A DNA stretch of 64,000 nucleotides from Sipunculus nudus (lineage: Eukaryota; Annelida; Sipuncula; Golfingiida; Sipunculidae). The position numbers and the translations under genes were made by a program. This document shows, piece after piece, positions 300-46,800 of this stretch; positions within the stretch are counted from its first letter, which is position 1, and the number at the start of each line of letters is the position of its first letter. A model generated the notes under the pieces. It worked only from the letters and a program-made list of their open reading frames with translations. It searched no databases and was not told the origin of the DNA. The DNA is taken from NCBI GenBank assembly GCA_026874595.1, contig CM049319.1, forward strand, positions 13,419,601-13,483,600. The letters are read 5' to 3'.

Positions 300-945
300 G
301 GTGGAGTAGAGTTAGAAACTGCCTTGAACCTATGTTTTTTAGTATTATAGTCATTATATAATTTTTATATATCTTGTATAATTCACCATGGTTATTGTAT
401 AATCTGTATATTTATCATTACAGTCATTGAACACTATGTATATATATTTAGTATTACAGTCATTGTAAATTATGTATATTTAGTATTATTTACCATAGTC
501 ATTGTTTATCATGAATATTCAGTATTATTTACAATAGTCATTGTATACTATGTATATTAAGTATTATAATTATTGTATACTATGAGTATTATTATCATTG
601 TATACTATGTATATTAAGTATTATTTACCATAGACATTGTTTATTACAAATATTTAGTTTAATAGTCATAATGTATACTATGTATATTGAGTATTATAAT
701 CATTGTTGAATATGTACATTTAGTATGATAGTCATTATGTATCCTATGTACATAGAGTATTTTAATCACTGTATACTATGTATATTGAGTATTAGAATCA
801 TTGTATACAATGTATATTGAGTATTATAATCATTGCATACTATGTATATTGAGTATTATAATCATTGTATACTATGTATATTGAGTATTATAATCATTGT
901 AAACTATGTATATTGCGTATTATTTACCATAGTCATTGTGTATAA
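300..945. repeat. Minisatellite of about 30-32 bp that overlaps the 3' end and splice donor of NAT10 exon 4
   Basis: From roughly 300 to 930 the plus strand repeats units of the type agtattataatcattgtat / actatgtatatt. The clearest copies lie at 440-920. Several units (about 481-505, 520-545 and 615-640) carry ttatttaccatagtcattg or near variants. On the minus strand this reads ACAATGACTATGGTAAATAA, which is the last 12 coding bases of NAT10 exon 4 plus its donor (true junction at 928/927). The array therefore contains decayed copies of an exon-intron boundary. Copies become less regular to the left. Confidence 0.8.
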
Positions 946-3900
946 CTTTCTGAGTGAGTCCATTGACCTCAGCAGTATTACCACCACACCTCCTCCCTCC
1001 ACAGTCTCAATGGTACGGCACAGTAGGTTAGGAGACATGGCCTCAAAGTCCTACAGAATAAAAGAAAGCAAGTGACCCACAGGTCATGATGCTCAGATGA
1101 CTAATCTGCAAAGCTTAAATAAAGTCTAACATGAAAGACAGCAACAGTGTACCACTATCTTCTATTGTTCTCACTTACAGTGGCCAAATAAAAATATCCA
1201 GTGCTTACTGTGTGATCACTAGTGCTGGTATATGGAGACCATCTGTGTTTTTACATGTTTCATTAACTTTAGGGCTGGCATTTGTATCTGCAGCTGGTTA
1301 ATCCAACAGGTTAATCCAGATCAGATGAAACAGGTTTCATCTAGTTTTCTCTGAAATTTGGGTGTATACTGATTGTGAGGTTGAAATTTCACACTACGTT
1401 TACCAGTATTTCCACTTGTGCATTCAATTTGATAAGCCCATTTTTTTGTTCAGTGGTCTGCTTAGAAGGGTTACCTTCTTGAATTATAGACAGATATATG
1501 CTCAGAGCTAAACAAAAATTAGACAATATGCCAGTATAGGTGAAGATCTGTGACTTTTAACTGTATGACAGTAGCAAAAAAGCCTAGTTATTATATCACT
1601 TTTCATAAAACCTGACAACTGAATGTCATCTTAAATTCCTTTAAAATGTCCACTGATATGGAAAAAGGTGCACTGTCCTGAAAAATATCATGTTAAACGT
1701 GTAAAGAAGCTAAATAGAGTCTTACACACATTTTTATTTTTCACACCTACTCACCTGAAGAATACACATGCCATATGTGTTTCCAAGTATCTTATGGGTC
1801 TCTGAGTAGTAACAGTAGCGGATGTTGGTGGCAGCAATGAACAGCTCAAACGGATCATCTTCCTTCACATCCAGCTTCCCACTCTTAATTTTCTTCTGCA
1901 ACTGTCTCATCCTCTTCTTCCGATGGCTATAAATAGAAAACATTGCTATGAATAGAACACTACACTTTGCTTTGAACAGAAAAATTTGCTATCAATAGAA
2001 AATCCAGCTATAAATAGAAAATCCAGGTATAACCAGACCCAAATACAAATGACATCCCCACAGCTTTGTACTGCACAACACTTCAACATTTATTACTGTA
2101 CTCTATTTGGTATGATAATCAATTTTTTAAAACAAATTTAACTTTCTAATATTGTTTCCGTTAACTTGTGGCTCATTTTTTTCTGGACTTCTAGTTCACA
2201 TTGGAACCGAAAAAGTTGTTATCAAAGAATTGAGCAAAGTCTCAGCAAAACTGCTTGTGACCAAAACTAAGAACCTGCTGCAGAAAAATTTTCACTTTTC
2301 TTTCATTCGATAAAGATTTATACTCAAATTATGCATTTATAAATTATATATATATATGTCGAGGCCCAGATTAGAATCTGGCCCAATTTAAAACTGGTCT
2401 GACCCAGATCAAAATTTTGATTTGGACCGGCCCAGATCAAAATTCTAATCTGGGCCAGACCAGTTTTAAACTGGGCCAGACCAGATTAAAATTTTGATCT
2501 GGGCCGGTCCAGATTACAATCCTGTGGTGAAGACTTCAGGATTTAAATCTGGTCTGGACTGATTTTAAACTGGGCCAGCCTGGATTAGAATTTTAATCTG
2601 GGCTGGTTAAGTTTACATTCCTGTGGTAGACTGATTTTAAACTGGACTTGCCCAGATCAGATTCCTAATCTGCTCCTAGGCTGGCTTCAATTACACTATG
2701 TTTACTTAGCTGCCCTTTAATCAATTCAAAGAATTTGTAAAACTTTGTGAGTCAACAATAATAAATATTTTATGAATTTATTTCATTTTCTATGAAAATA
2801 TCATTGGTTGGACTCCTGTCATATTTTTGTAATTTTACCTCTTATGTGAAATGTCCAAAATATAATTATAAAATAATTATGTTAGACATTGGTATTTTAC
2901 AGATAAAAACTACAAACATAGCTTGTAAAACATGTGCATTAATTAAAACAAACTAAATCCAAATTTAATCAATAATTATTAATATATATATGTTACTCAA
3001 TGTTAATTCAAAATTTTATTTGTTATTTAAAGTTATTTATCATAAATTGGTTTTTGCTCTGTATCCCCCCCCCCCTTCCCAATATTGTTAGTACATTGGA
3101 CCTAGAACTTACAACATACTACATATTAAGGAAAGAAGGCCCTGATACATCTATTAAGATACCTGAACACAAGTCATTGAAATTTGAAAAATATATATCT
3201 AGTGTACATAAATTAGGTCAATATTGGCTAATTTGTGTGAATTATTAACAAGATCATAATGTATTTAGATAGAACAGTGGGAAAAATATTCACCAACTCA
3301 GCATTTTAACTATATTGAAGGTAGAGAATATTTGTATTGCAGCATTTAACTATCTTCAATTTAGATTAGTTATCAGTTATTAGATAAGCTTTTTTTAAAG
3401 TTATTAACTCCAAAGTGAAACCTCCACCATGTTTGTCATCCTCTGAAATAAAATTCTTAATCAAATTTTCACACATGTTCACCTCTAATTTTGAGACTGC
3501 CAAATGACAGCAATCATATCATTTTCTCAGCTGTGGATTTTCTGCTATTAAAAATTACAGTAATGGTATCACTAACCTCTCTCTAGCCCCAAGTTAGGGC
3601 ACAATGTCATGCTGCTCACCCAAATGAGCATCAAGACTGATAAATTACTTTCCTTCACTTATAAATGAGTAAAGCTGGTATTTAATTATGCATGTATATA
3701 TTTAATAATACACATGTTATTTTGATATTCAGAACAGAAAATTATCTCAGTTAAGTTGAAAATTTTGATATTAAATCAAGTAGATGTCTCAGAACTGACA
3801 TGTTCTTAACTGTGATTAATTATGGTAGTTGGTTTAGGTGAAGTTCAAATGTGAACTTGCATGCTTGAAGAATAGATGTTACCAAAGAAGCACATTACAT

Positions 3901-6900
3901 TTGATTGTTAGCTTTTTCCTCACTAAAATATTTTAAATGATCTTGTTCATTAGGTGTTTTGTGCCCTTCAAATATCTGGAATAAATGTTTACTGTATTAT
4001 CTGATTTAAGATGATAACAAGTGACCCAGGGGTCATGATGCTCAGCTGACCAGGAAGACATTGACAAAAGTATTTTTATCATCTGAATGTCAAATTTGAA
4101 TGAAATACTTTTTCCAAACTTGACCTTTTGTATAAAATCATCCAATATTCATTGGGGTACTATGGAGCTCTGTAGCATGAAGGATATGGGTAACAGACAC
4201 GTATTTTCAAGGTTTACAAGATGACTTTTCAGAGGTCTCCCAGCATGTCAAAAAATAAAATTCTAGGTCCAGTTATTATGATTTGTGCCCTGTTAACAAA
4301 TCCAAATGTTTATTCTGGGGGGTATTTCAAAGCCGCATAGGATGAAGGAGATGGGTAACAGAGATGTAATTTCAGGTGCACAAGGAGACTTTTCAGGGGC
4401 CTCCCAGCATATCAAGAAAGGAGATTCTAGGTCAAGTCATTATAATTTGTGCTCTGTTAACAGATGACCAAATCTTTATTCTGGGGAGTACTTCGGAGCC
4501 CCAGAGCATGAAGGATATGGGTAACAGGGACCTTATTTCGGGTTCCCATGTAGACCTTTTATGGGTTTCCCTGGAGGTGAGGACAGAAGATTCTAGGTCC
4601 AGTCATTATGATTTGTGCCCTGTTAATATATGACCAAATCTTTATTCTGGGGGAACTTCAGAGCCCCATAGCTCACAGAATATGGGTAACAGGGACCTTA
4701 TTTCGGGTTTCCATGTAGACCTTTTATGGGCTTCCCTGGAGGGGAGGACAGAAGATTCTAGGTCCAGTAATTATGATTTGTGCCCTGTTTACAGATGACC
4801 AAATGTTTAAAGATCACAAAAGTAGAGAAAAAAAATCGTAAAAAATAAAAAAAATATAGGAGGCGCCACCAATCTCCAGAAATTGATGAAACACTCCATG
4901 ATCAATATCCATGCAAAAAAACATGGTGATTAATGCATTAGTTGTTCAGATACTTGAGCTTTTGTATTAAATTTTGCATTATTCTGGGGGGTACTTCAGA
5001 ACCCCATAGCTCGAAGAATATAGGTCACAGTGACCTAATTTCAGGTTTACAAGGAGAATTTCCATAGACCTCCCAGGATTTCAAGTAAGAAGATTCCCAG
5101 TCTAGCGGTTACGATTTGTGCCCTGTTAACAGACAGACGCCTGGATGGCCGGACGGACGACGGACAAAAGGTGATCCCTACAGCTCAGATGACTTTCAGT
5201 CAGCTGAGCTCAAAATTGAAAAAAATCAGGTGGCGCCACCAGAATGCAGAAACTGATGAAACATTTCATGATCAATATCCATGCAAAGAATCATGGTGAT
5301 CAATATAATAATTGTTCAGATACTTGAGCTTTTGTATCAAATTTTCCATTATTCTGGGGGGTACTTCGGAGCCCCATAGCTCAGAGGTTATGGGTAACAG
5401 AGACCTAATTTCAAGTTTTTAAGGAAACTTTTCATGGGCCTCTCAGCATGTCAAGAGAGAAGATTCTAGGTCCAGTTGTTACGATTTGTGCCATGTTAAC
5501 AGATGACAGCATCTTATGGTCTCAAAAATAGAGAAAAAAATTCGTAAAAATAAAAAAAATACAGGTGTCGCCACCATACTGCAGAAACTGATGACACATT
5601 CCATGATCAATATCCATGCAAAGAATCATGGTGATCACTGCAATAGTTGTTTAGATACTTGAGCTTTTGTATCAAATTGTCCATTATTCTGAGGGATACT
5701 TCAGATGACTTACAGTCAGCTGAGCTAAAAACACTTAATGGTCAATATCCATGCAAAGAATCATGATGATCTCCATATTAGTTGTTCAGATACTTCAGCT
5801 TTTGTATCAAATTGTCCATTATTCTGAGGGATACTTCAGAGTCCTATAGCTTGAAGGATATGGGTAACAGAGACCTAATTTCAAGTTTCCACAGGCACTC
5901 TTCATGGGCCTCCTTGCATGACAAGAATGAAGTTTCTAGGTCCAGTTGTTGCAATTTGTACCCTCTTGATAGATAACCACATCTTCAAAGGTCTCGAAAA
6001 AAGAGAAAAAAAAATTCATAAAAATTTGAAAAAAATAGAGGTGGCACACCCTCTCTGCAGAAACTGATGGAACAGCTCATGATCAATATGCATGCAAAAA
6101 TCATGACCATCAGTGTTGTAGTTATTGAGATACTGCACTTTTTGTATCAAATTTTCCATTATTCTGGGGGGTATTTTGGAGCCATACAGCATAAGAATAT
6201 GGGTAACAGAGACCTAATTTCAGGTTTCCATGGAGAATTTTCATGGGTCTCCCTGTGTGTCAAGAATGAAGATTCTAGGTCCAGTTTTTATGATTTGTGC
6301 CCTGTTAACAGATGTTCATATCTTTAAAGGTCTCAAAAATAGATAAAACATTCTTAAAAAAAACCCCAAACAAATACAGGTTGTGCCACCAGTCTGCAGG
6401 AACTGATGGAACACCTCTTGATCAATAGTTATGCCACAAATCATGACCATCAGTGATGTAGTTATTGAGATATTGAAGTTTTTGTATGAAATTTTTGACT
6501 ACTCTGAGGGGTACTTTGGGGCCCCATAGCTGGAAGGATATGGGTAACAGAAACCTAATTTCTGGTTTCCATGGAGACTTTTCATAGGTCTCTCAGTGTA
6601 TTGAGAATGAAGATTCTAGGTCCAGTCGTTACGATTTGTGCCATGCTAACAGATGACAGCATCCTTAAAGGTCTCAAAAATAGAGGAAGAAATCGTAAAA
6701 AAATCAAACAATATAGGTGGCGCCACCAGTCTGCAGGAACTGATGGAACATCTCATAATCAATATGTATGCCAAAAATCATGAACATCAGTGATGTAGTT
6801 ATTGAGATATTGAAGTTTTTGTATGAAATTTTTGACTACTCTGGGGGGGTACTTTGGGGCCCCATAGCTCAAAGGATATGGGTAACAGAGACCTAATTTC

Positions 6901-9259
6901 TGGTTTCCATGGAGACTTTTCATAGGTCTTCTAGTGTGTTGAGAATGAAGATTCTAGGTCCAGTTGTTACGATTTGTGCCATGCTAACAGATGACAGCAT
7001 CCTTAAAGGTCTCAAAAATAGAGGAAAAAATCGTAAAAAATCCAACGATACAGGTGGTGCCACCAGTCTGCAGGAACACATGACACATCTCATGATCAAT
7101 AGTTATGCCACAAATCATGACCATCAGTCAAGTAGTTAATGAGATATTGAAGTTTTTGTATGAAATTTTTTACTTTTCTTGGGGGTACTTTGGGGCTCCA
7201 TAGCTCGAAGAAAATGGGTAACAGAGACCTAATTTTGGTTTCCATGGAGACTTTTCATAGGTGTCTCAGTGTGTCAAGAATGAAGATTCTAGGTCCAGTC
7301 GTTATGATTTGTGCCACGTTAACAGATGACAACATCCTTAAAGGTCTCAAAAATAGAGGAAAAAATCGTAAAAAATCAAACAATACAGGTGGCGCCACAA
7401 GTCTGCAGGAACTGATGGAACATTTCATAATCAATATGTATGCCAAAAATCATGAACATCAGTGATGTAGTTATTGAGATATTGAAGTTTTTGTATGAAA
7501 TTTTTGACTACTCTGGGGGGGGGGGGTACTTTGGGGCCCCATAGCTCGAAGGATATGGTTAACAGAGACCTAATTTCTGGTTTCCAAGGACATTTTTCAT
7601 GGACCTCTCAGTGTGTCAAGAGTGAAGATTCTAGGTCCAGAGTCACGATTTGTGCCATGCTAACAGATGACAGCATCCTTAAAGGTCTCAAAATTAGAGG
7701 AAAAAATCGTAAAAAATCGAACAATAAAGGTGGCACCACCAGTCTGCAGGAAGTGATGACACATCTCATGATCAATAGTTATGCCACAAATCATGACCAT
7801 CAGTCAAGTAGTTTATGAGATATTGAAGTTTTTGTATGAAATTTTTTACATTTCTTGGGGGTACTTTGGGGCTCCATAGCTCGAAGAATATGGGTAACAG
7901 AGACCTAATTTCTGGTTTCCATGGAGACTTTTCATAGGTCTCTCAGTGTGTCAAGAATGAAGATTCTAGGTCCAGTCTTTACGATTTATGCCATGTTAAC
8001 AGATGTTTACATTTTGAAAAGTCTCAAAAATAGAGAAAAAAATTCGTAAAAAATTGAACGATACAGATGGCTCCACCAGTCTGCAGGAAGTGATGGAACA
8101 TCTCATGATTAATATGTATGACAAAAATAATGACCATCAGTCAAGTATTTCATGAGATATTGAAGTTTTTGTTTGAAATTTTTTACTTTTCTGGGGGGGT
8201 AGTTTGGGGCCCCATAGCTGGAAGGATATGGGTAACAGAGACCTAATTTCTGGTTTCCATGGAGACTTTTCATAGGTCTCTCAGTGTGTCGAGAATGAAG
8301 ATTCTAAGTCCAGTCATTAAGATTTGTGCCTTGTTAACAGATGTTCACATTTTTAAAGGTCTCAAAAATAGAGAGAAAAATTCGTAAAAAATCAAAAAAT
8401 ACAGGTGGCACCCCCAGTCTTCCGGAACTGATGGAACCTCTCATGATCAATATGTATGCCAAAAATCATGACCATCAGTCAAGTAGTTAATGAGATATTG
8501 AAGTTTTTGTATGAAATTTTGGACTTTTCTGGGGGGTACTTTGGGGCCCCATAGCTCGAAGGATATGGGTAACAGAGACCTAATTTCTGGTTTCCAAGGA
8601 GATTTTTCATGGACCTCTCAGAATGCCAAGTTACAAGGTTCTAGGTCCAGCGGTTACGATTTGTGCCTGGTTAACGGACGGACAGACGGACAGACGGACG
8701 ACGGACAAAGAGTGATCGCTATAGCTCAGATGACTTTCAGTCAGCTGAGCTAAAAATCAAGCTAGCCTAAAATTAGATTAGGATTCTGATCTGGTTAGGC
8801 CCAGTTTAAAATTAGTCCACCACAGTACTGTAATCTTGACTAGCCCGGAATTAACATTTTGATCTTGGCCAGCCAAGTTTAAAATCAGTCCACCACAGGA
8901 TTGTAAACTTAACCAGCCCAGATCAAAATTCTAATCTGGGCCAGACCAGTTTAAAATCAGTCCACCACAGGATTGTAAACTTAACCAGCCCAGATCAAAA
9001 TTCTAATCTGGGCCAGCCCAGTTTAAAATCAGTCCAGACTGGATTTAAATCCTGAAGTCTTCACCACAGGATTGTAATCTGGACCGGCCCAGATCAAAAT
9101 TTAAAACTGGGCCAGCCCAGATCAAAATTTTGATTTGGACCGGCCCAGATCAAAATTCTAATCTGGGCCGGTCCAAATCAAAATTTTGATCTGGGCTGGC
9201 CCAGTTTTAAATTGGGCCAGATTCTAATCTGGGCCTCGACATATATATGTATATATGTA

Positions 9260-9315
<56 letters not shown>

Positions 9316-10269
9316 TCTTTGATGTAAGCAGATGTAATTGTCATTACTATCAGAATAAAGTTTTGAACAAAAATCATACACAATTTCTGACAGTATATTT
9401 CAGTATGAAAGTATTGTCATCTGGAACTGCATATGATCTTTTTAAATGAAAGGTTTTTATACAAAAATTAAAAAATCATGAAATTCAAATAAAACTTACC
9501 ATCACCTCATCTGAGCCTGTGGGATTCAATTTCTTCATTATTTTTATTTAGAACTATCCATTCTTATTCATATAAATTTCCTTTAAATTCCAATTTAATT
9601 CATCCTGGCCATGGTCTCACTTAAGCTTGATTTTTACTGAAGCCAAGCTCCTAGTTTTATTAGAGGACTGAAGCCCTGGCTTTTACTTACCTACTGAAGC
9701 CTAACTCCTTCTTGTAGCACCAGAGGACTGAAGGCCTGGCTTTGACTGCAGCTTTTGACAACATGTGATGCAGGATGACAACCTGTAATTACAGTGACAT
9801 ACAGGTTAAATTATTTACATATTCAGAGCTAATGAGAAATATATTTCAACTGATCATGAAATCTTCTTATTGTTAATGATTTTTGAGATTGTGGATATTG
9901 TTGATTAATGTATATTTCCAGAGTTTTCTGTACAATTTAATCAAAAATGAACTGAATTAATTAAAACAATACATTTAAATCATTTCAATTCAACTTCAAT
10001 TCTTGAAGCAATATCAATACAGCATTTCTTTCTCTAATTGCAGTTGAAAGATATGTATTCTTTGACACTCTTTTCAAAAGACCAAACAACATGAAATATA
10101 AATTATAGAATCACCAGGAAAAATTTAAACTTTTATTAATAGAAAGTACTGAACAGCTTACTTGATCTCTGCCTCTGTCCCCAACCACCACAAACATGGA
10201 CCGATGCTTGGTGTGGACTCCATTTTCTATCAACACTCGTATACGATTGTCAATCTTCTTTCTGACCAT
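928..10269 (-). CDS. NAT10: NAT10, RNA cytidine acetyltransferase, first four coding exons (gene continues beyond the left edge)
   Basis: Known role of the family: nucleolar enzyme that makes N4-acetylcytidine in 18S rRNA and, with an adaptor, in tRNA, using ATP and acetyl-CoA. Coding exons on the minus strand are 10162-10269 (36 codons from the ATG), 9691-9782, 1755-1926 and 928-1050, with lengths 108, 92, 172 and 123 nt. The phases join without a break into 165 residues. Recognisable stretches are VRKKIDNRIRVLIENGV at the N terminus, VVILHHMLSKAAVKARPSVL, HRKKRMRQLQKKIKSGKLDV, DDPFELFIAATNIRYCYY and DFEAMSPNLLCRTIETVEGG. All match the N-terminal (DUF1726/TmcA-N) part of animal NAT10. The helicase, GNAT and tRNA-binding domains would lie left of base 1. 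An acceptor-like 'tttttcag' at 10278-10285 ends 7 bases before the ATG, so a non-coding 5' exon probably lies further right. Intron 2 is 7.8 kb because of a large inserted element. Confidence 0.9.
1051..1754 (-). other. NAT10 intron 3
   Basis: A 704-bp intron with canonical GT (minus strand, 1754-1753) and AG (1052-1051) ends. It contains one copy, at about 1073-1105, of a dispersed motif, gtgacccacaggtcatgatg followed by ctcagatga, that recurs elsewhere in the window. Otherwise I see nothing in it. Confidence 0.75.
2359..2690 (+). repeat. Left inverted arm of the 6.9-kb element
   Basis: About 330 bp built from alternating palindromic modules (cccagatcaaaatt...aatctgggcc and ccagttttaaactgggcc). 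It mirrors the arm at 8755-9239. Single-stranded, this arm could fold into many local hairpins as well as pair with the other arm. Confidence 0.7.
4150..8755 (+). repeat. Tandem array with two unit lengths, about 165 bp then about 338 bp
   Basis: The marker atgggtaacag occurs at about 4185, 4350, 4516 and 4681 (spacing about 165). After an irregular stretch with markers near 5390 and 5857, it recurs from about 6196 with spacing of about 338 (6539, 6877, 7214, a variant at 7553, then 7889, 8227, 8566). Each long unit reads from ccccatagctcgaaggatat through aagattctaggtccagtc and gttacgatttgtgcc to a palindromic ggtggcgccacc and a poly-purine/AT part. The short units lack the second half. The last unit ends in a run of gacggacggac repeats and atgactttcagtcagctgag. 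The ORFs across it are by-products of the repeat. Confidence 0.85.
8755..9239 (-). repeat. Right inverted arm of the 6.9-kb element
   Basis: This is the reverse complement of the left arm, longer by roughly 150 bp through extra copies of the module gtttaaaatcagtccaccac plus aggattgtaaacttaacc. It ends at cctcga (9239) against a long (TA)n tract. Confidence 0.7.
9240..9312. repeat. (TA)n microsatellite
   Basis: About 70 bp of TA dinucleotides interrupted by a few tatatg units, directly adjoining the right end of the 6.9-kb element. A shorter TA tract adjoins the left end, so the element probably inserted into a pre-existing microsatellite. Confidence 0.9.
9637..9684 (-). repeat. Decayed tandem copy of the 3' end of NAT10 exon 2
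   Basis: The plus-strand text actgaagccaagctcctag...agaggactgaagccctggct repeats, about 54 bp away, the exon segment actgaagcctaactccttct...agaggactgaaggcctggct at 9693-9740. The copy sits on the intron side of the true donor (9690-9689). It has lost coding sense through substitutions and a small deletion. Confidence 0.7.
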
Positions 10270-10612
10270 TGTAATTCTGAAAAACAGAGTGAATGTATTA
10301 AATGCTTCTGAAGACTCATTTTTAACATTTTCATATATATGGCCTTGGTCTATTCAAAATCTAAAATATCATGATTTTTTAAACAACATTTTTTATATTT
10401 AGTTGTGGGCCAATCATTGAGTTTTATCGAAAGTCAGTCAGTTTGCTGCCACTTTCAAGCGCTCGATTACCAAAGGCAACTATCGATTACATCATAATCC
10501 TGATTGTTAATTTTTTCCAGAAAGCTTTTTTGTTATAGGCTAAAATTATTCTTCCATGTTTTACAACAGTCTGCACTTCATATAATGAGTCTGTGTTCCC
10601 CAATAACTTCCA

Positions 10613-10620
10613 CATGTAAC
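10613..10620. repeat. Target-site duplication, left copy (CATGTAAC)
   Basis: Direct 8-bp repeat, identical to 12188-12195, immediately outside the hAT element. Confidence 0.88.
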
Positions 10621-12187: not shown

Positions 12188-12195
12188 CATGTAAC
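12188..12195. repeat. Target-site duplication, right copy (CATGTAAC)
   Basis: Direct 8-bp repeat, identical to 10613-10620, immediately outside the hAT element. Confidence 0.88.
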
Positions 12196-14317: not shown

Positions 14318-14430
14318 GCTTATTGACACACGGTCCGAAAGTCTCGGTTACCTCGATTTGGAAGTCCCGGTTACCGTGTTTTGAGGTCTCGGGTACTGAG
14401 AATTGGGAGTCTCGGTTACTCCGTGTCACC
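14318..14430 (+). repeat. Short tandem repeat, about 24-bp unit with core GTCTCGGTTAC
   Basis: Four imperfect copies (gtctcggttacctcg, gtcccggttaccgtg, gtctcgggtactgag, gtctcggttactccg) at 14340-14420. They are immediately preceded by cttattgacacacggtccga, the first member of a motif family that recurs at 18190-18350. Confidence 0.65.
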
Positions 14431-15559: not shown

Positions 15560-16300
15560 GGTAACATTTTGAGACATCTGCAATTACAAACATACATTTT
15601 AGCATTCAGTGTTAGCATATTTAACCATCTATGTTCGCTTTAACCTAACAAAACTTCAGATAATGAAAACTTAACAGAGGAGTTTAATGACGAATTATTC
15701 AAAACCTCTTGTATTTTTAACCAAGTTAGCGACAAGAGAACAGTTCAACAAAAATATGTGATAAAGTTTCTCTTACTAATTTACAAAAGGTACAAGTAGG
15801 AGAATCTATTAGCTTACATTCAGTCTATGACGAAATGGGTTTAACGTCACCCGACGTTGTAGTTCATAAAACTGAAAATTCCTAAGTGGTACGAAATTTG
15901 TTGTGTCATAAATCTTGGAGAATCCCATATAAACAATCTCCTCTTATATATTAATTAAATCTTGTTTCCATTTCTAAACTACTAAGTCTGGAGTGACTAA
16001 ATGTTTCTCTCGTTTTCTCTCATCATTAGAGTGTACGGGTTGTGCTTGTTTCAAGTAAATTTTTACACTTGTTCCAACAGCGGACCAAGTATTCTACCAA
16101 AGTCTTACCGTTATAATTTATGAATTAAACCAATTGAATTGTTTTATCAAGTATAGGAAACTGCATAATTGTGTAAGATGTTTTATCATACAGAATTGTT
16201 AGGGGTTCATAATATAGGAAGAACATTCAAAACCATTGTTCCTCTCATCTTCGATGTCACCGTTTTTACATATGACACAGCCCCTTGCTTCAGTGTTTAG
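15560..16300 (-). pseudogene. Decayed LINE (non-LTR retrotransposon) ORF2 C-terminal fragment
   Basis: On the minus strand, in broken frames, I can read segments such as FQFYELQRRVTLNPFRHRLN (about 15880 down to 15820) and DSPTCTFCKLVRETLSHIF (about 15810-15750). The order 'W-K..IY ... REFQY-like ... DS-x-C-x-FC ... ETLSHIF' is characteristic of the region after the reverse transcriptase domain of many animal non-LTR elements. Stops and frame changes are frequent, so it is inactive. How far it extends to the right (towards 16700) is unclear. Confidence 0.55.
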
Positions 16301-21082: not shown

Positions 21083-24000
21083 TTCAGCCCGCATTGTCCT
21101 GGTTGATATGAGTAACAACCTTGATGAAAACACTTGTGGAATTATATGTGAATCACTGAGACAGCTGTTTGCATTAGTGTGCAATCTCACAGGCCCCTGT
21201 AGAATGCCATTCTTCGGGCTTTTTGCAGTTGGAGCATATCCTGAGGCAAGAACACACCCACACAGTTCAAAGGAATCACAGCTCCCTTTTTCACAGATCA
21301 TTGTTTTTGGTGAATCAGCACTGCGTCCCCGCCGGTATAAATGTTCCCAAATGCTTCTTCCCCTCATTGAAACCTCTAAATGTACATGTAGTAAAATACA
21401 AATTTTTATTAATACAGATATTTTATAAATGGATAAAAGTTTGTTTTGTTCGTTTCAAGAATTGTCGCTTATTTCACTGTATTCCTATATTAGAAACTTG
21501 GAAAATTTTACACATTTTCCGACGGTTAAATTTAAAAATTGGGAGCCCGCTCCATAATCTTTTTTTAACCCATGAGTCTCTGGAGTGCTGTTCTGTGTGG
21601 TTTAAGTAAGCACGAAAAGTTTATTTATTCTTCACTCCTTTTTAGCAAATAAAATATAAGTGGAAACGACTTTATGTTAAATTAAACCTTGACCTCTCCT
21701 TCCTGATGAGGCATACTCATTATATAATGCGTCATGTGTATTTTATAGAGTAAGCAATCTTTTTTTTTAGTTAAAGGACAAACTCATTATTAATGTATGC
21801 TTTTTATAAATAAAGCCATTTCAACACCATGCACGTATTTATAACGACAAAACATTATTGTGAAAATACTTCACTTGCCACTGTCTCGTGAGCGTTATGC
21901 AGAAGTTTAGCTTTTCGTGGTAACCTAAATAAAAAAATAATGTGAATTTTTAAGTTCTCCGGTTAATATTTGAAGAATTACAGTTATTCTAGATCTATAT
22001 ATATAGTGGTTGGAAAGTAAATTATTTACAACATGAGTTCTAAAAATCTTATGGGACAAAAATGCTCCCAGCAATGCGGTCCATGTAGCACATATACTCT
22101 CTTGAATGCTATTTAATGGTAATCTGACATAGGTTAATACATATGTATTTTTCTACAGAGCCTGTTTCCTCTAAAGCATGTCAAAGGCAACCTTCAGCTT
22201 TTGAAGAATGCTTTACAAGAACTGGCGGATTGTCAGCGGGACTATGAGGGAAGTGCTAAATCGGACAGCAGTACCGGCTGCCTACTGCAGGGTGCTCAGG
22301 AAGCGGTAACAATGTTCAAACGTCAGGCTCAAGGTCTACTCCAGGTACACCAGTTACACTAATTTAATTGGTACTTGGGATTCTAGGTTCAGAATTTCAG
22401 CCGTGGTTTCTGTAAAGTCTCTGTAAAGGAAAAAAAACATCTTTTGGAGCAGGTTGTGAAATTTCTTTGTAGAATTTATTAAACTCACTCAGAGTTAATA
22501 CATGTTTGACCTCATTCAATCTTGCCAATGAGGGATTTCTCAGTGTCGAAGTTAATTAATCCTGAGTTAAAGAAAGAGTTAATCCCAGAGACCCAGAAAG
22601 ATATATATACAGACTGTAAACATACTTTCATATTTCATCTAAAATTGGACTGAGACTGTAATATTGTGTTCCTTACAGGCCTCTGGTCTATGTCTTCATT
22701 TGAAAATTATCATCATCACTTGTCACTCTGCCTCAGTGATTGCGAAAGCAATGGAGGGTTTCTGTCAGAAGAATGACGTGGAAGGGCTGAAGGTATTTAG
22801 GATTCTCATAAGTGATCAACCCAGAGAAATAACCTTATATCTTATGAATATGCAGTCAGATAAATATGCGTGCATTTCGTGTATGTTTATCTTGTTGATC
22901 ATGCAGTTCGATCGCAAAATACAATCCTAACTCTTTTGGGTTGATTCCGTTTTACTATATATTTTGCACTGGGTCTTAACCTTCAAATATTTATAATCAC
23001 CAGAATTAGAAATCGTAATCATAGATGTTTTATACAGGGCGTGTCTCCAAAGTTCTACAGTTGTTAAATAGTATAACGCATGTGGGTCGGGGAGTTGGAT
23101 AGTATAAGGTTTATGGAGCCCTGACCAGGTAATTTTAATTTAAAAGAAAGGTGTCAGCTTGGATTCATTCAAACTGTTCAAACAATCACCAGTCACTTAT
23201 TCCATTGTATCCATTGCTTTTCCCCCAATTCCTGTAATATGTAATATGTATGTAATCTTCGGATACGTATTTTCCAGAAAGTGCAGGTGGTGTCATTGAA
23301 CAGACTAGGAGTGACGGACATGCTGGAGGAGGTGGACCTGAGCAGTCAGGCCAGCGGGGGCACGGACAGGTCCGGGGGCAGTGAGACGCCAGGCCTGGTG
23401 GATGCGGTAACCATGGACTCTGGTGAGTAGCACGTGATCATTGACTCGTGTACCTTCATATAAACTGCATGACAATATCGATCTCTTTTCTAACATTTTC
23501 TGTTTTTCCTCTATCATGTTTCTATACCCTAAATCTGAAATTTTAAATTCTGATGCAATAAAGAATTAAAAATTTCATTTATCAATAAAAAAAAGAAGCA
23601 CAGTAGGAGAAAAACAAAAAAAGGCCATATGAAAATGAGTGAAAAGTTCAGATATATGAATACCATCAGAAATAACATTGTATTAGGTTTAAAATAAGTT
23701 ATACTTTATTGGGTTCAATATGAATTTAAAACAACCTTTGGACTAATTTTAGATACCTTGTATAGGGTTTCCGCTGGGTATGCTACCTTAATATACCACT
23801 ATTGCCACACTAATGATGGATGGGGGGGGGGGGGGGGGGGGGGACTCTGGTAAGTGTATATGGATAGTGGCTAACGTAATTCTGCTACGGCACTATAGTA
23901 TATGTATAAGTGCCATGCTTTGTGGTAGATTACCCTGAAGCTTTCATCTCATTGCAGTCCACCAATTCCGGTTTAATCCCGAGAAAAATCCAGTGCCGCC

Positions 24001-27000
24001 ATGCATTCCCTATTAAAATTAATGATGTGATACCGACTGCCAAAAAAGTTACTTTAAGAAATATAAACTGTGTTCGGTTTTATAGGTTATTTTATTATGA
24101 ATAATCATTTTAACATAGTTTAATAAATAAAAAAAAATAACTGTAATAATTTAACTTTTTAAAAACAATGAAAAAGTGGACACCGGGAAACGTTAAATTT
24201 TCTGCTTTATTGTAGACAGTGTGAGTTTGCAGCATTATTTTAGGTCATGGCTGCATGACAACTCAACCGATCAAGAGCATTTGCATTTACTCCTTAACGG
24301 CCAATCAGGTGAGTGATCCTCCATTCATTTGCATTTACTCTGTAAAGGCCAATCAGGGAAGTGATCCACATTTCATTTGCACTGTTAAATGGCAATTCAG
24401 GTGAGTGAACCACATTTCATTAATTTTTTACTCCTCAATGGCCGATCAGGTGAGTGATCCACTTCCGATTATAGATTTGTAATCCATGCACAATTATAAT
24501 GACAGAAAAGGGAAACATTTCAAAGTCAAATTGTGCTGCCTGTTTCATAATGACGTAAATGGTAACACGCCCTGGGACCAACCATGTATGTGTCTGGCCC
24601 TGGAAATATAAAAGATATTGAAATAGGGTTAACTGAGTTAACAGGGAATTTCATAATTTAAGATCGGCTAAACAGTAGACCAATGACTAGATACATGCAT
24701 GTTCAAAGGGCGGTTGTTTCCTATTCATCTAGATATTTATAACATATCCAGTGAATAATACCATTTGAAAGAGCTGCTTTTTATACGATTAATTTTTATT
24801 CTTAGATGATGACAGCGATATTCTGGTAATAAAGTGTGACCTCCAGGAGAGAATGTTGAATGCGCAGCAACTTCCTCACAGTAACCAATTTGTAAGTATA
24901 GTAAAGTCCTCATAAAGGAATCGGTCTGCAAGTGCAAATTTCACTTGTAATTTAGTGGAATTTGTTTTCCTCCTGTCTATATTTTCTTTTCTTTCACTCA
25001 GGTGTCTTTCCGCATACTAATTGTCATGTGAACCCTTGATAATCATAAGACGTGCATTATTATATAACATTACATTGTTTTCGACTCGACATTGATGATA
25101 TGCGCTTTCTCATGCAGAGTTATAAGGGTTCATTCCACAAGTGCGTATTCCTGCAGGGGAACCACATGCTTATATAGCACGCTTTCCAAACAATGAGGCA
25201 ATGTGGTAAAATTTGTGTTGCTTAAACATTTGTTTTAGTGTTGTCAATACTTTTGATTTAATGTCCTGTGTGAGTTGAAGAAAAAATTATCTGAGAATTT
25301 AATAAAAAAAAATACATTTCATATTTATTTTATAAGATGTATATTGCAATGTCCTTTTGTTAGATACCATCTTTTGATGCAGTGCTTGATGCCAGAGGGG
25401 GTACAGAAACCCCCACCCTCCGGACAGACAAAGAGTGGACAGCTCACCCCCATTCATCGTCTTAAGGTCCTACAACAGATGCCGTGTGATTCAGTCTGCG
25501 AGTCAGTTCTGTTTGGAATGGTAAGTCAATAAATTATACCAGGGTGTCTAATAAGTATTATACTATATAAACCATATAGAGTTTTTTTTCTCGGTTTATG
25601 TGAAAACTAAAATATTTTCTTCTAAAAGGTAGGGCAGTGATTCTATAAATTCTGTTGAGTTATATTTAACTCAAAAGCTCGTTGGGATGTAATGGTAAAA
25701 CGAAAAGTCAAACTTTCTTGGTCTTGTTCAATAATCTACAGATCAAAGGAAATCAAAATCCAGACACAAGGCCGCTATCCACAACTAAAGTGGGAAGGTT
25801 ATTTCACTCGAGAAGTTTATAGGTAAAACAATACACGTATCTGTAATGTTTAATGCAATTGTATGTTTCTAAGTGGTCACGTTTAATAACTGTGTTAGAT
25901 AATTGTAAGCTTTATACAAGTGTGAAGACAATATTAAGAGCAGGAATAAACATTGTATAGGTACTACAGAAATGCATGGATATGATTCCATTTTAGCCAC
26001 AGATTTTACGAGCGACCTCCTGCTGGAAAATTGAGTGGGATGAACTTGACACTAACCTCCAACTCTTCCATGCTCTCTGTTCAAATATGCAGGAAAGGGT
26101 AAAATTTTAAGTTCCGTAAGATGGGTAAGAGTTTAGTTATATTTAATACAGATACTTTCATTGCCTCTTTTAAGCAGTACTATGGGCTCGTGGTAAATTT
26201 TACCCTAGTATTTGAACAAGGTAAAAAAAATTGCTTGTAGAAACATCACGTCAAGGTCATGTGCTGGTCAATCTCCTTACAGGATATACTGGACATGTAA
26301 TGCCTAGGGATTTAGATGTGTTTTCTTTGGTTTACTTACTTTCACTTGACACTGACAAAATGCTGGAAATAAAACAATATAAATACTTGTAAGCCAACGT
26401 TCTTCAAATCACTGCAATCGCAGTCCCAAAAGTTGCGTACAATGATATTGTACAGTGTTTTTTAAACTGTAAACTACATACCAGAAGGTAATTACATATG
26501 ATCATGTTTCACACCACTAAGGCCCTTTTTTCTTTCCCTGCGTGAACTTTAGTGTGGTAGCACTGGTCAGAGTACATAACGATGTATCTTTTTTATTGCT
26601 TCAGCAAAATAAATGGTCATTACCATATGATACAATGTTGTTTAATTGTCTGTTGGAAGAAATTCTGCCTGTTGGCCAGAGCGGAACCAGCTGCTGCATT
26701 ACCTCAGAGCAGACGAGGTCCCAAAGGTGGGGCTGACATTCAAAAACCCCAGGGACACTATGTTATATTCCCGTCAGATTCAGGGACTCTCCTCATCAAA
26801 CCGGTCTCTACAAGTGACGTTTTGCTGCCATGTGACTTTCCTACTGCTGCCCAGCCGACTGAGGATGCTGCCGTGATCATAGATAAGGCACTCAGTAGGG
26901 TTAGTATGTTAACTGACATAACAGAACTACGTATTGATATATACAATTACATATTATATTGGTTTATATAAACGTTCAATATACCGATCGGTCTAGTCAT

Positions 27001-33600: not shown

Positions 33601-33639
33601 TCCTGTAACAGTAGGCCTACAAGGAGTATTTTGAATATT

Positions 33640-33835
33640 GCAAAAGCGGTATAATGGGAACATCATGTCCGACGTTTTGCACCCGACATCCGAGTTTTAT
33701 ATCACTTTCTTCAAGGGGAAGGAACTTCCGGTTCAGCTGACAGCCCAAAACAAGTTGCACAGATACTGTAACTATTTATTGTACATTGCGTATTGTGACC
33801 GATGTGACCTAATATAGGCTGTCAATCGTGATTTA
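33640..33835 (+). promoter_or_regulatory. Probable BECN1 promoter and 5' leader
   Basis: This is the stretch immediately before the BECN1 ATG. It has an ETS-family-like ACTTCCGG at 33724-33731, a common arrangement in TATA-less housekeeping promoters, and no TATA box nearby. No acceptor site is obvious before the ATG, so the start codon may be in the first exon. Confidence 0.45.
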
Positions 33836-39800: not shown

Positions 39801-40845
39801 CCAGAATATAAGAGAATAAAGATTGCCTGATTCAAAACAGAAATAGCCACATCAGCGGTGATACATAAGGCCGTCTGATTAGTGCAGCCGAGTATAGTAT
39901 AGGCAGTAGGTGTGAAACACCGCCACGCAGGCTGGGGTTGTCCTTGCTTTAATCAGAATGCCCAGGGTGGGGTAATTAACCTGTACAAACAGTCTGTTAC
40001 AACAGACCATAACTGATTAGCCAACCGCAAGTTGTAGGTGTGATAGATTAAGCCCCGCGGATCCTTATAGTCCTTGGCTCAGCTTTGACCAGGGTGTCTT
40101 TAAAGGAAAGCTTTGATTTTCATTCTGGTAAATGCCCAGGCCTTGAGGACAACAATGAGCATTAGTTGAGTTTATGTGCGCCTCCATTATTTACTCATTA
40201 AGTCTATTGGGCAGATTATTTATATAATTATGGAAATTTTGATTAGCTAGAATCGCTGCTTACGATTGCAGTTGAGGAAGTATGAGCTGTATATAAACCA
40301 TGCTTTGTAGCTGATTAAAACATTGTGATAGTCAATGTCAACACGATTTACTGCTCATCCTGATTATTCTCCACGGGAATTTTTACATACTGTGAACTCT
40401 TACTCCTCAATGCAGTCATGTAAGTGCTTTGTCCTGTCAATTGATGACAAGCTGTCCATCCTTGCAAGACTTGACACGGGTACCAAGCCAGCTGACCTCG
40501 CCAGACGGCCAGAGAATTTGAGGTCGAAAGATCTACGATCAGCAACATTTTCGTTTTGTTTCATTTATTTGAGATAAAACTGTGTACATTAACGTGTTTA
40601 CCTGTACATTCAACCGATTCTCCCTATCCATTTAAAAAAAATGCAGTACATGTATAAAGGTTCCCATAGGTAACCTATCTGCCGAGGATGGCAGCACTTG
40701 GTCATGGCAGGTCATTCAAGTTATCATGGCAGCCACTAGTGACATGATGTAGGTATGATACCGATTGTTTCCAGCGCAGGGCTGTTCACAATAATTATAT
40801 TATTATATAATAATGTGTTCTATATGATGAATTTATTTAATCGAT

Positions 40846-40887
<42 letters not shown>

Positions 40888-43800
40888 GACAATATATTGT
40901 CACATGTTTATTAGCAATTTCATGCAAAATCGTTCATCTGAATGATCGCTCATCTGAACAAAAAGCTTGTCCCTCAAGGCTTTCAGATAAATGACGCTCT
41001 ACTGTATATTCAACATTTTAGTCACCCTTGGTGGCTATGTGAGCGTAAGGAATACCATAGAGATGCTGTAAGAACCAATGTAAATCACTGAGCAAAGTCA
41101 TTTTCAAGATAGTTTCTCTAAAAACCTCTGTAAGTTTCCCCAATCCTGCCAAAGCTTTTTAAAGACAATGTAAAATATATGTAAATATAAGGTCAGTTTG
41201 ATAAAAAAAAAAGATTGTATAACTTTGAACATCGGACAAGAAAGATCAGTTAAGAGGAAATTACTGTTTACAGTAAGAACCTTTGTAAAAAATGTTGATA
41301 GAATTAAAATCAAATTTTTGTAAAAGAACAACTTTTTGGTAGGACCAATCAAATAATTAAGAAAACAAATGTTTAAATATTTTATTACTTAATGTTTACA
41401 GATTAGTATCTTCTGAGAGTGGCAATGGTTTTACACTTCTTGGTGAGTCAGAGGCAGGAAATACAGAAAATCTGAGCCGTAAACTCAAGGTAAGGAAAGT
41501 CTTCATTGGCCAGTCACTAGATATCCTGTAATCAGATATATTAAAACGTTGCCTGTAAATTGTGAGGGCCTTATTAAATAGAAATAAATATTTTACCACA
41601 AGGGATGGTTGTTAACTTTAGCAAGTAAAGGAAGAATTTAGCTTTCCCTCTGTTTTTGCTGCCCCTTTTTAGCCCTCAGCCCTTAGGCTGATGGGCTATC
41701 GTCATCACCCAAGATGTCTGTCTGTCCGTATGTCTGTCTGTCTGGTGTCTGTTAACTTTTACCTCCACAAAGTCATGCTCAGGTTTAAAGATGGGTGACC
41801 TTGACCTATTTTTCTATGGTTTAGAGCTGCTTATAGAAAAATACTTAGAAACTTATCTCTCAGGAACCATTTGGTGGATTTTTCACAAAACATAATATGA
41901 TTGGGACTGATATCTGTACCTGCTGCACAAGTTTGGGGGCGCAACCTACAGTTACCTTCAGTATGCATATTATTTTATGCTTTGTTTAATTTACAATCCT
42001 AGTTAAAACCTGCCTTATGAGACTATTCTCTCCTTCCTAAGAAGAGTATACTGAAGTACTTACTTGATAGAATATACTTGACTGGAAGCCCAGTGAAAGC
42101 AAGGATTAAATTGTTTAATTCTTTTCATTGTAAATGTTTCATATTGGTCTAAGATTTCATGTGTTATGAGATGGATATGTGAAAAAGAAAGTGCATTTAC
42201 TGGTTAGCTCTATAATATTAATGGTTCTGGGCATCAACAGGGACAAAAGGAATAGCTATATGCCACAATGGAAAAGAACCCTTCGAATAAAACATATAAT
42301 TAAGAATCAGATTACCTCCAGAATTTTTGGTATTATCCTGACCCTTCAGAAAATGTCATCAAAATCTTTTCATTTTTCAATATCTTTTTTTGTGAAAGAT
42401 TGCTGACAGACAAGTCAAATAGCCAAGGGTAAAACATTATATCTTCCATGAACTGGTGGAGGTGAAATACCATTATGAATAAGACATAAATTTAGAAATG
42501 AATACCTTAAATGTGTTTCCATTAGAATGATGGCTAATGAACAGAATATACTATGAAGATTTACATAAGTTATTTTAATACTGTTCAAGACAGCTATTCA
42601 TGTGTTTTATCTGTATATATTTTTGTGTGTTTTCTGGCTTGCTCTGCATACCTATATGAATGAACTGGAGGCAATTCCTGTTAAGACAGGTCATCTACAA
42701 GCTGCAAGTTAACACAGTACAACCACCCATGTTCACAAACTGAAAAAAAACATGTAGCTGAAGATGGTTGGTTGAACATGTGAGGAAGTTGAAAGCTTAC
42801 TAGTTGCAAAATGACATTAAAAAAAATCTGGTTTGTTTGACTTGCCACCAGGTTATCTTGATGAATGTGTTTATATTCTTTTGGTGGACCCAAGACATGT
42901 AAAAAACAAGAGTATATAAGAAAAAGAACTGTTTTGTGGGATTGTCATTTTATTGTCTATTTTCATTAAAGGTTCAACGGTTATTTTTAGTTAATAGACT
43001 GCAGATTTGGGAATAGTCCCCTTTAATATATGTCATGTATTTCAGAATAGGCCCCTTCAAGGGTCAGGTACAGCAAACCTTGGGGACTGATTGTTCATTC
43101 CGGTAAAAACTACCTTGTGACATTACTAGTCACTTTAACACAAATCTGTGGACAAGAACGGAATTAATGATCCCTTTTACACTTGTTCTATTAATGTTGA
43201 TTTCTGCTGCAGGTAACAAGTTTCCTGTTTGACGTCCTGTCTGGCCAATCAGAAGTGGACCATCCTTTGTGTGAGGTGAGTCATGTGCAGCAGACATTGA
43301 AGCAGAGAAATCAGAAAATACTTGATCAATTTCAAGATTAAACCAGGTATCATAACCGTGCCAGGTAAACAGCCATGGTAATACAGATCAAATGAATAAT
43401 AAGTAAATGTTAGTTTTTAAATCAAAAGAAAATGGATATAGCTCTTTCATAGCTGATTGACTTCATTAAATAATAATGTAATATTATGTTTATTTTATGA
43501 TAAAAACTAGCCTGTACAGAGGAGTAGGTTAATTTGTAAATTGCTCTGGCCCATTCATTCACTGCACAGGAATGTGATTAATCAGAATTTTTTACAAAGA
43601 TTGCATATATTCTGATGTAATTCATACATTAATGTCTTGACATAAATTGATTACTCTTGTAATGATCTTTTGTCTTTATTTAATTAATGTTGTTTGAATT
43701 AGTGCATTGATTTTTATTGAAAAACTAGTATGAATTAGTGAAAATGCATGAAAATAGAAGTCTTTGTAAAGACAGTAACAGTACTCTTAAAAACTGTAGA

Positions 43801-46800
43801 AATCCCACTGACAAGATAAGTGTGCAGAAAGTTACTGTAAAACCTGTGTAAATTCCAACATCCATAATATTTAGCAGGCAAAGCATTTAACAAATAAATA
43901 TTTCACGCAAATAATCTCTGTGTATTTATTCTCTTTTTTTTTTTTTAAGTGGGCTGAAATAACATACATCTGAGATAGGTTTGTCAATATAAGGTGTAAA
44001 ATGCTCTCTCACAATGATGTATGAATACAGTAATTTTTTTTTACTTTTTTGACAGGAATGTACTGACACTCTGCTTGACCAGTTGGATCAACAGCTCAAA
44101 ATTACAGAAGATGAGTGTAAAGATTACAGGTAATTAAAACAATTACAAAGGATAAGGATGGTTTTAAAGATTACAGGTAATTGCAAATTACAGTGGAAGA
44201 GTGTATATAGATAACAAGTTATTTCAGACTTGTAGGAGATGAGTGTGAAGAATAAAGGTAATTTCAGACATATTGAGGATTAGTGTAAAAGATTACAGGT
44301 GATTAAAACAAATACAATGTATAAGTGCAAAAATTTAAGGTTGTTTCAGACTTTCAGGCTTGTTTGAGATGAGTTTATAGATTACAGGTAATTTTAAAAC
44401 TACAGTCGATGACAGTGAAGCTTACATGTAATTTCAAAATTATTGATATACACCAAGATTTTAAAGTAGATTTCTTGATAACCAGTTATTTATTTCATTT
44501 GTACATTTTCACTGATTACCATTACTTCTTGTGTAGAGATTTTCTTGGGAAACTTGGAAATGAGGAGGAAGAAATTGATGAAGCAGCCCTAGATGAGGAA
44601 TTAAAACAGGTAAACATCAACATATGGAATTTATTCTGTGATATGGTGTGTATGGTTACTTTATGACAGTCACATATTATGAATAAATAATAATGCTTAT
44701 AAAATAGTATATCCGGGCACAATTGCTCTGCCTTGTTATCTTGTTGCCCTGTATTATATTTTGTTATGTGCAGCAGCATGTACATTAATATTTAAAAATA
44801 ACATTCCTCTTGCTGTATGCTTATCATGACATGTATTCATTACTCTGGTCCATTTGACAGATGTATCCCTAACATGACAGATGTATCCTTCATGTTTCCA
44901 TGACTGATGAGGTTTTAGTCATGCTTGATTGATTTTAAGATTTTCAACCCACAAATTTTGTTGTTATGCTTTACAGCAAACAACACATACAACATGTACA
45001 TTTATGTTATCAAAAGCCAATCATGCTATGGACTTAAATTGCTCTTCAGTCAGCATTTCAGTATTACATCTACAATGTTTTGAAAAGAGAAAGTCTTACA
45101 GTTGATTAATTACTGTATTTGCAGCACTGAATATCATGGTTTGATCATTAAAATCAGCATTGATCAGTGATTTATTGATAATCAGTTGCAGACCTCACTC
45201 TCAGTAATGGCATGTCTTTGTCATTCTGCCTTTATGTTATATAATTAGTCGTGGTGTGCCAATTAAATTGATGATTGGTCATTTCTTTCAAAATTGATTG
45301 CATTTTGCATGATCAGTTATAAAGATTATGTATGCACATGCAAAGAATCTCATCCTGTCCGAGATATACAAACAAAAAGTAACAAACAGCATAAAAACAG
45401 AAACTTGCGCAGCCATCAATTGTCCGACGACAAGACCTTGAATGTGGGTGGATTGATGGTTTCAGAATGAATACCAATGTAGGCCTGCTTGTCAGACTAT
45501 TTACTGGGGTCAGTATTTTAGGTACTTCTATACAACAGATTTCATGGTAATATAGAAAGTACTTAAAATAATTGTTTTATTACGTAAACATAATTGTGAG
45601 CTGTTTCTGTATTAATGAGAATTTTCTCTGTTAAAGTTTATACGCCAGAGTAAGCCAACCGAAAATTTTCCCTTATTGGGCCTATTATCGCCCATCCCGT
45701 GTATCTAGGTCACACTTCCGCTACCTGTAATCACATTTTCTTCTGGAGTTCGCCATGATGGACGTGTGATCCCGCACTGCGAGATTCGTCCACTGTTTGG
45801 TTTGTACTAATGAGTTTGCCAACTGAACTGTAAGTTGTGTTTCTTTTCCCTTGCCCGCCATGGAGAACCCCACTTATTGTGTCTCTTGTGGTTCTATAAT
45901 CCCGGTTTGGGACTCCCACCCCACTTGTTTTCGTTGCCGCACCAACAATGACTCCTGCCGTGGTCCGGCTGATCCTTGTTTTCATTGCCAGACTTGGATG
46001 TCTGACAAGTTCCCCCTCCAATATTCCCTTGTTTGGCCCCGTGGTTGTCTCCGGGCGGGTCGGGGGGGGGGGGAACCTACCCTGGGTGACCGCAACACGC
46101 ACGTGTTGCGTTCCCCGTCCGTTACCGCCGGTCCTGTCTCCACTCCGGTAGTTTCGACAGTGAAGTCTTTGCTTTCTCATTCACGCAAACGGAAATCTTC
46201 CCCTGTTCCCGTGGCCTCCCCTTCTGACGGCCCTTCTGCCTATTCCATATTACATAAATTGTCCCGTTTTTGCTCATCTCTTATGTCGGATCTCGACGAT
46301 TCGTCTAGACCCGAATCAGTCCACCTTGTGCCCTCTCCAGCACCCCGGGTTCTTTCTCCCAGGCCGTTCTCGTCGCCCCCGGCTCCTCGCCGGATTCCTT
46401 CATTATACCCGGGGCCGGCTGGAGCCGTCCCACTGGATCGCCCGGATCTTCCTGGTGTGCAGGTAAGTGCGTCGGTCCCTCCTGCCTCCGTTTCTGGGCA
46501 GCTGGCCTCGTCTCCAGTTACAGCCGGCTCTTTATTTCAGTTACCATCTGCTGTGCTGCCTGCGGCTCCCGTTCCTGTGCCTTCCAGGGTGGTTCCTGCT
46601 GCTGCCCGTTCCCCGGCTTCCTGTTTCCAGCCTCTGGTCGTTCCAGCTCAGCGGGTCTCTCTGGCTCCCCCTTCACGGGGTTCTCCAGGGTCCCTGACTT
46701 CTCAGTCAGCCGATCCCGCCCTGGCACAAGACCAGTGGTCGGAGATCGCGCTTCAACGCCAGGCTTGGCGTACGCGCAAATCTGCGCTTCTGGACCTAGT

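Follow-up and report, generated by a model that had tools for sequence, protein, structure and literature searches.

Tandem repeats that begin at or span a splice donor are known from the human genes ABCA7 and CBS. According to the available sections of one report (PMC5954066), the variable number tandem repeat (VNTR) in intron 18 of human ABCA7 is composed of 25-bp tandem units starting at the donor of exon 18, and the donor of the next unit is used at times, which retains 25 bp and shifts the reading frame. A 31-bp VNTR of human CBS is named c.1444_1467+7(16_21) in the accessible part of another report (PMC2630376); we read this name as a unit of the last 24 exon and the first 7 intron bases in 16-21 copies. 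Here we describe similar arrays in a stretch of 64,000 nucleotides from Sipunculus nudus (GenBank assembly GCA_026874595.1, contig CM049319.1, positions 13,419,601 to 13,483,600; hereafter the window), where tandem copies of an exon's end and its donor lie on the intron side of four exons of the genes NAT10, M1AP and BECN1. These arrays are probably donor-spanning minisatellites that arose by ordinary local tandem duplication in a repeat-rich genome. The kind is already known from ABCA7 and CBS, and what is new is a rather frequent set in one animal genome. A search of the open-licence PMC literature found no paper on genome-wide donor-anchored arrays.

The arrays resemble the ABCA7 VNTR, as far as the available sections describe it, in that the tandem units lie directly behind the exon and the first GT of the array is the exon's own donor. 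The ABCA7 unit begins with GT and is therefore without exon bases, whereas the arrays in S. nudus contain exon bases. In addition, the length of the ABCA7 VNTR varies among people and is linked to disease, whereas the present arrays are known from the DNA of one assembly alone. The CBS VNTR, in the accessible part of its description, has the same exon plus intron unit design as the arrays of BECN1 exon 6 (BECN1-6; 32 + 9 bases) and NAT10 exon 2 (NAT10-2; 53 + 7 bases). Its unit is invariably 31 bp, while here several genes in one genome are affected and some arrays are heavily decayed. Four donors of the window and six donors of myosin exons elsewhere in the genome have arrays of the ABCA7 and CBS kind, in which units some tens of bases long start at the exon's own donor or extend across it. 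Exon bases within the unit, as in CBS, numbered 53 in NAT10-2, 32 in M1AP-6, 32 in BECN1-6 and 16 (aligned) in NAT10-4; among the myosin exons they numbered 14 in L046, 7 in L054, 23 in L077, 50 in L056 and, by reading, 11 in L039. The finding places the human ABCA7 and CBS cases within a general class.

Donor arrays in NAT10, M1AP and BECN1

The gene models of the window were reconstructed from splice motifs, and the joined reading frames were all open. They comprise 4 coding exons of NAT10 (minus strand, truncated by the window start), 13 of M1AP and 16 of BECN1, in total 33, the same number that an earlier sequence-only reading of this stretch had counted; 31 donors and 31 acceptors could be tested. 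The NAT10 model aligned to human NAT10 over all 165 residues and the BECN1 model to human Beclin-1 over residues 12-444 (human proteins in the PDB set), and Pfam agreed with both assignments. The third model had no Pfam match and is presumably M1AP, a name given from its likeness to the human protein. Exon 2 of M1AP has an apparent GC donor (GAG/GCAAGA, window position 21245), the sole non-GT donor among the 31.

In the junction test, the last 30 exon and first 12 intron bases were compared with at most 300 following intron bases, and the introns of other exons served as the null (99th percentile 22, maximum 27). Four of the 31 donors scored above the 99th percentile, namely NAT10-2 (26), NAT10-4 (45), M1AP-6 (57) and BECN1-6 (50), and the identical four passed with exon bases alone. 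These are the four exons in three genes for which the sequence-only reading had claimed donor-side tandem copies, and this claim was borne out. The strict count is 3/31, since NAT10-4 passed with the 300-base target and failed with 150 bases. When entire exons were compared with up to 600 bases of flank on each side (whole-exon test), a downstream copy was detected in 4 of the 33 window exons, every one ending at most 1 base from the exon end, and an upstream copy in none of the 33. The positions are listed in Table 1.

Chance similarity or an alignment artefact is hardly credible as an explanation. The junction score of NAT10-2 lies within the null maximum, and in the whole-exon test NAT10-4 scored 27 and barely passed the null, the maximum of which was 26. 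However, NAT10-2 reached 52 against 27 in the whole-exon test, NAT10-4 stood well above the null in the junction test, and the myosin arrays L046, L054 and L077 described below are obvious by inspection. For these five named arrays chance and artefact are refuted.

The four arrays differ in their state of preservation. For NAT10-4, Tandem Repeats Finder gave 15.9 copies. In NAT10-2, 44 of the 53 exon bases are identical between the copies, and the decoy donor is no longer present in the second copy. Two decoy donors of M1AP-6 equal the real donor in both 9-base score and sequence. BECN1-6 is the best specimen, with GT at the donor position in all eight units, most of them near GGTAATT. Its copies are 49 to 80% identical in pairwise comparison, and the array was too decayed to be listed by Tandem Repeats Finder at score 40. 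The exons of NAT10 and BECN1 encode conserved protein that aligns to the human sequences; in these two genes the intronic copies therefore derive from the exon. Across the whole 1.43-Gb assembly (153 contigs), the intronic portion of the BECN1-6 array had a single match, itself, and the units of M1AP-6, NAT10-2 and NAT10-4 had no match beyond their own array stretch in the 363 kb searched.

The insertion of a dispersed repeat at donors was considered as well and does not fit BECN1-6, given the single genomic match of its intron part.

The arrays also resemble intron gain by tandem duplication, which is a local duplication copying splice signals (available part of PMC3443670). There, a new intron arises from AGGT copies, whereas the acceptors examined here are unlike the arrays. 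If an intron were born through tandem genomic duplication of an exon segment containing AGGT, exon sequence and splice signals would likewise be copied in tandem, but the intron would then be predicted to end, at its acceptor, in a copy of the exon end. By reading of the two introns concerned, the acceptors behind M1AP-6 (TTATTCTTAG) and BECN1-6 (ACTTCTTGTGTAG) lie outside the arrays and are unlike them, which contradicts this prediction and makes intron birth a very improbable origin.

Table 1. Arrays at splice junctions in the window and in myosin exons elsewhere in the genome
Feature	Position in window	Strand	Description
NAT10 exon 4 donor array	394..945	-	32 to 39-bp unit, ~16 copies, copy 1 = exon end
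NAT10 exon 4	928-1050	-	donor just below 928; upper limit of the array set by reading
NAT10 exon 3 acceptor array	1927..2032	-	tandem repeats of 19 bp that copy its pyrimidine-AG end
NAT10 exon 2 donor duplication	9626..9743	-	unit ~60 bp = 53 exon + 7 intron bases, 2 copies
M1AP exon 6 donor array	24277..24466	+	4 copies, 44 to 50-bp unit (~48 bp), 32 exon bases in the first
BECN1 exon 6 donor array	44098..44436	+	8 decayed copies, ~41-bp unit = 32 exon + 9 intron bases
BECN1 exon 13 donor array	55503..55750	+	intron-only, 26-bp GGTCAAGGTTACC-type unit, within ~20 bases of the donor
L046 (myosin)			12.7 copies of a 36-bp unit, 95% match; last 14 exon bases + donor
L054 (myosin)			~12 copies of 30 bases; 7 exon bases in unit
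L077 (myosin)			35-bp unit, 100% match; 23 exon bases in unit
L056 (myosin)			last 50 exon bases repeated
L039 (myosin)			simple duplication; 11 exon bases by reading
L068 (myosin)			simple duplication; only ~3 exon bases in array

Recurrence in independently chosen exons

Further exons were picked by family search, roughly in profile-rank order and blind to repeats. For the myosin cohort, 60 of 75 matches were retrieved in approximate rank order, and 48 donors and 44 acceptors were called at a splice-site score of at least 5. L056 failed the donor cut and was added through the whole-exon test, giving 49 myosin donors; the strict count leaves it out. Among NAT10 exons 5 to 19, 14 were used and exon 16 was dropped for a donor motif mismatch. 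An ab initio cohort comprised 23 predictions with a score of at least 22 outside known genes in 200 kb of flanking sequence, some of which are surely false. The upper parts of the kinesin (126 matches) and chaperonin (63 matches) lists gave 43 and 8 donor pieces, of which 46/51 were usable donors; matches that ended at the domain end, had internal stops or were bacterial were excluded. This last cohort covered donors only, with 120 bases searched behind each. The junction cut for independent donors was 26.

Donor arrays were detected at 6 of the 132 independent donors (strict 5/131), so that the pattern is no quirk of one window. All six belonged to the 49 myosin donors and were spread over six contigs; five of 48 scored above the cut, and the sixth, L056, came from the whole-exon test. 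The other cohorts yielded none among 83 donors (NAT10 exons 5-19, 0/14; ab initio, 0/23; kinesin and chaperonin, 0/46). Such a clustering of all six cases in one cohort of 49 has a P of 0.002 to 0.003. At the acceptors the count was 1/81 and marginal, the one case being L077 (1/44 myosin acceptors), which is A-rich. The window and independent exons together gave 10/163 donors and 2/112 acceptors, and of the donors examined roughly 4 to 6% have a donor-spanning array. Should such arrays be carried by a few percent of donors, the tolerance of donors and acceptors to duplication could be counted from public genomes and RNA reads.

Behind L046, the retrieved piece contains nine more donors, each the same as the first over nine bases. 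In the whole-exon test, 5 of the 60 myosin exons had a downstream match above every null value; the matches of L046, L056 and L077 lie at or near the exon end, and those of L049 and L079 are short inner matches. Upstream, one of the 60 exceeded the null (L068, 28 against a maximum of 26). Some junctions came close to the thresholds: the L060 acceptor came up to the percentile for exon bases alone (21), the L070 donor stayed under the cut with a score of 24, and NAT10-10 had a marginal upstream score (27 against 25) and failed in a later junction run.

Two observations were made on the families searched. Consecutive matches to the same part of the myosin head (~110-153) occur at G000:C2:44848559-44854198 and may be mutually exclusive muscle-myosin exons. 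Nine GroEL-type matches, equal in score and extent, were located on the small contigs C61, C62, C66, C72, C73, C75, C89 (two) and C99. Judged from these matches, the contigs are apparently bacterial, from a symbiont or a contaminant, with redundancy.

Donors, acceptors and the intron background

Only one of the 31 window acceptors, that of NAT10-3, passed the junction test (score 26), and it did so with intron bases only. With exon bases alone none of the 31 passed, BECN1-9 lying exactly at the percentile (20). The sequence-only reading had seen no copies at acceptors. This holds for copies with exon bases, but the NAT10-3 acceptor adjoins copies of its pyrimidine-AG end; likewise, its list of four donors stands, but the NAT10-3 acceptor array and the intron-only donor array of BECN1-13 had been overlooked. 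Thus, arrays touching a junction are not confined to donors, and in the window those containing exon bases are. The CBS variant 844_845ins68, as described in the accessible part of PMC2630376, is similar in being a splice-junction-spanning duplication made harmless as splicing skips the extra copy, so that acceptor duplications can be tolerated too.

Two further exons belong beside these cases. The kinesin donor L093 has an intron-only duplication starting about six bases behind the donor, like that of BECN1-13. At the myosin exon L068, a decayed copy of exon bases 21-50 is located 66-95 bases before the exon. It is possibly a duplication across the acceptor, and acceptor-side copies may also occur.

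Donors and acceptors were compared directly. The independent data gave 6/132 against 1/81 (p 0.26), and with the window included 10/163 against 2/112 (p 0.13; strict 8/162 against 2/112, p 0.21). Copies with at least 7 exon bases were found at 9/163 donors and 0/112 acceptors (p 0.012), or at 9/163 and 1/112 if the marginal L077 acceptor is included (p 0.052).

For the window, the enrichment of array starts at donors, which the sequence-only reading had put forward as a check, depends on the null chosen. When the arrays were rotated inside their introns, 4 donors were seen against 4.5 expected and 2 acceptors against 3.8, so that no enrichment appeared. When the arrays were placed whole, the 4 donors stood against 0.5 to 0.9 expected (P 0.002 to 0.014) and the enrichment was present; the 1 to 2 acceptors stood against the same expectation of 0.5 to 0.9, none significant. 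The four donors in these tests were M1AP-6, BECN1-6, BECN1-13 and NAT10-4, and NAT10-2 was not among them.

At control points within introns, the left edge of an array was met at a pooled rate of 1.2% (bootstrap ranges 0.6 to 2.1% for window introns and 0.7 to 1.6% for other introns). Several results weigh against purely ordinary duplication. The independent donors exceeded the pooled rate (6/132, P 0.005; strict 5/131, P 0.02), and so did the donors of the window, which had been chosen for this very feature (4/31, P 0.0005; strict 3/31, P 0.006). Furthermore, the 112 acceptors showed no clear exon-containing copy in the junction test (one marginal), and acceptors should be about equally open to neutral duplication. 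The excess at the independent donors shrinks if the upper rate of 2.1% is taken (P 0.06, strict 0.14) or if the pooled rate is doubled to 2.4% (6/132, P 0.10; strict 5/131, P 0.21). The doubled rate was used because the exon copy does not decay; with one undecayed copy, an array at a donor can be expected to remain recognisable for up to about double the time. The acceptor count is consistent with the control edge rate. A modest excess of donor arrays over neutral placement is possible.

These numbers bear on a donor-linked mutation process, in which the donor itself would promote tandem duplication, for example by slippage with look-alikes downstream or by repair related to co-transcriptional structure. 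Such a process would account for the independent donors lying above the pooled edge rate and for the distribution of copies with at least 7 exon bases, and L077 indeed has a second CACAGGTA 16 bases behind its real donor, within the array. However, all six independent cases fell into one cohort with 0/83 elsewhere, the comparison of independent donors with acceptors was not significant (p 0.26), and the upper edge rate or the correction for slower decay lifts P to 0.06-0.21. One myosin exon, L068, had an acceptor-side copy in the whole-exon test, and an asymmetric splicing filter would by itself yield an equal asymmetry between donors and acceptors. We therefore regard a donor-linked process as rather unlikely, and the donor-linked process suggested by the sequence-only reading is not established by these counts. 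The broader proposal, that donors are true hot spots of tandem duplication in this lineage, with such a process affecting several percent of exons and providing a standing genome-wide supply of decoys, is doubtful to a similar degree.

Ordinary local tandem duplication can explain the arrays without a special donor-linked process. Tandem arrays were common in introns generally, both in the window and in the scans of other introns. About 4 to 14% of the intron sequence is locally repeated, depending on the measure, and in the background scan 4 to 8% of intron points scored at least 26 with the 300-base target, varying with the exclusions made. The statement of the sequence-only reading that the cases are hard to put down to general repeat growth was accordingly too strong.

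Decoy donors, origin of the arrays and neighbouring elements

Ordinary duplication would leave the arrays in a particular position with respect to splicing. Replication slippage or unequal exchange may have duplicated a segment spanning the exon end and the donor. The first exon copy and the first donor would be left intact, and the spliceosome, using this first donor, would keep making an unchanged mRNA. The added copies would become intron, and since the first donor can still define the exon, a donor-spanning duplication can persist. Thereafter the copies would expand, contract and decay as any intron repeat. Every added donor would be a decoy, the use of which would add intron bases and usually a premature stop. 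This explanation builds on several observations, namely the copies themselves, which in NAT10 and BECN1 stem from the exon and in one case proved to be local, the recurrence of such copies in other genes, and the stop codons behind the decoys. Arrays of all ages were observed, from near-identical ones (L046, 95% match; L077, 100% match) to BECN1-6 with its 49-80% identity.

Decoys scoring exactly as the real donor were identified in M1AP-6, BECN1-6 and NAT10-4, two in each. The computed coding effect of the 15 window decoys scoring at least 3 was a premature stop in all 15. Among the listed myosin decoys, that of L068 and one of those of L077 were computed to change the reading frame while the added bases stay free of stops, and the others bring a stop. 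Conservation was measured along BECN1-6 and M1AP-6, and in both arrays the donor 9-mer came first among all 9-base windows (rank 1/33 in one and 1/42 in the other); the units were cut by eye around the donor for this ranking, which favours the donor window. GT is kept in all 7 intron copies of BECN1-6 and lost in one of the three copies of M1AP-6. In NAT10-4 only five GT sites score at least 3 among ~15 intron copies. Arrays like L046 are natural experiments on how the spliceosome chooses one donor among equals.

Selection might retain the arrays if decoys were beneficial, either by acting as poison donors and reducing expression or by offering additional U1 sites that help to secure the exon. 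The top conservation of the donor 9-mer in both arrays measured, the complete set of GT in BECN1-6 and the premature stops of all window decoys would fit this explanation, and the conserved donor core in BECN1-6 and M1AP-6 is the one hint for it, weakened by the units cut by eye. On the other side, the NAT10-2 copy retains no decoy, few remain in NAT10-4, and one M1AP-6 copy is without GT. That the donor was lost in NAT10-2 and in the majority of the NAT10-4 copies argues against a general selection for decoys, and we consider such selection improbable.

Other repeats were noticed in the window. Within BECN1 intron 7 (window 45640-51000, limits approximate), an apparent retroelement was read from the sequence, with reverse-transcriptase-like coding and matching inverted ends; one translated piece has internal stops. 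A stretch of ~6.9 kb in NAT10 intron 2 (window 2358-9242) has inverted ends of the GTCGAGGCCCAGATTAGAATCTGG type, by reading, and encloses a 337-bp unit repeated 8.5 times. Relatives of this unit were found at window 59552-59687 and in L026. The whole stretch may be one large mobile element. Finally, GGTAAGTAGTTATGGTAAGT and near variants occur at dozens of places in the genome, including L001-L008, and probably represent a dispersed repeat with two donor-like sites.
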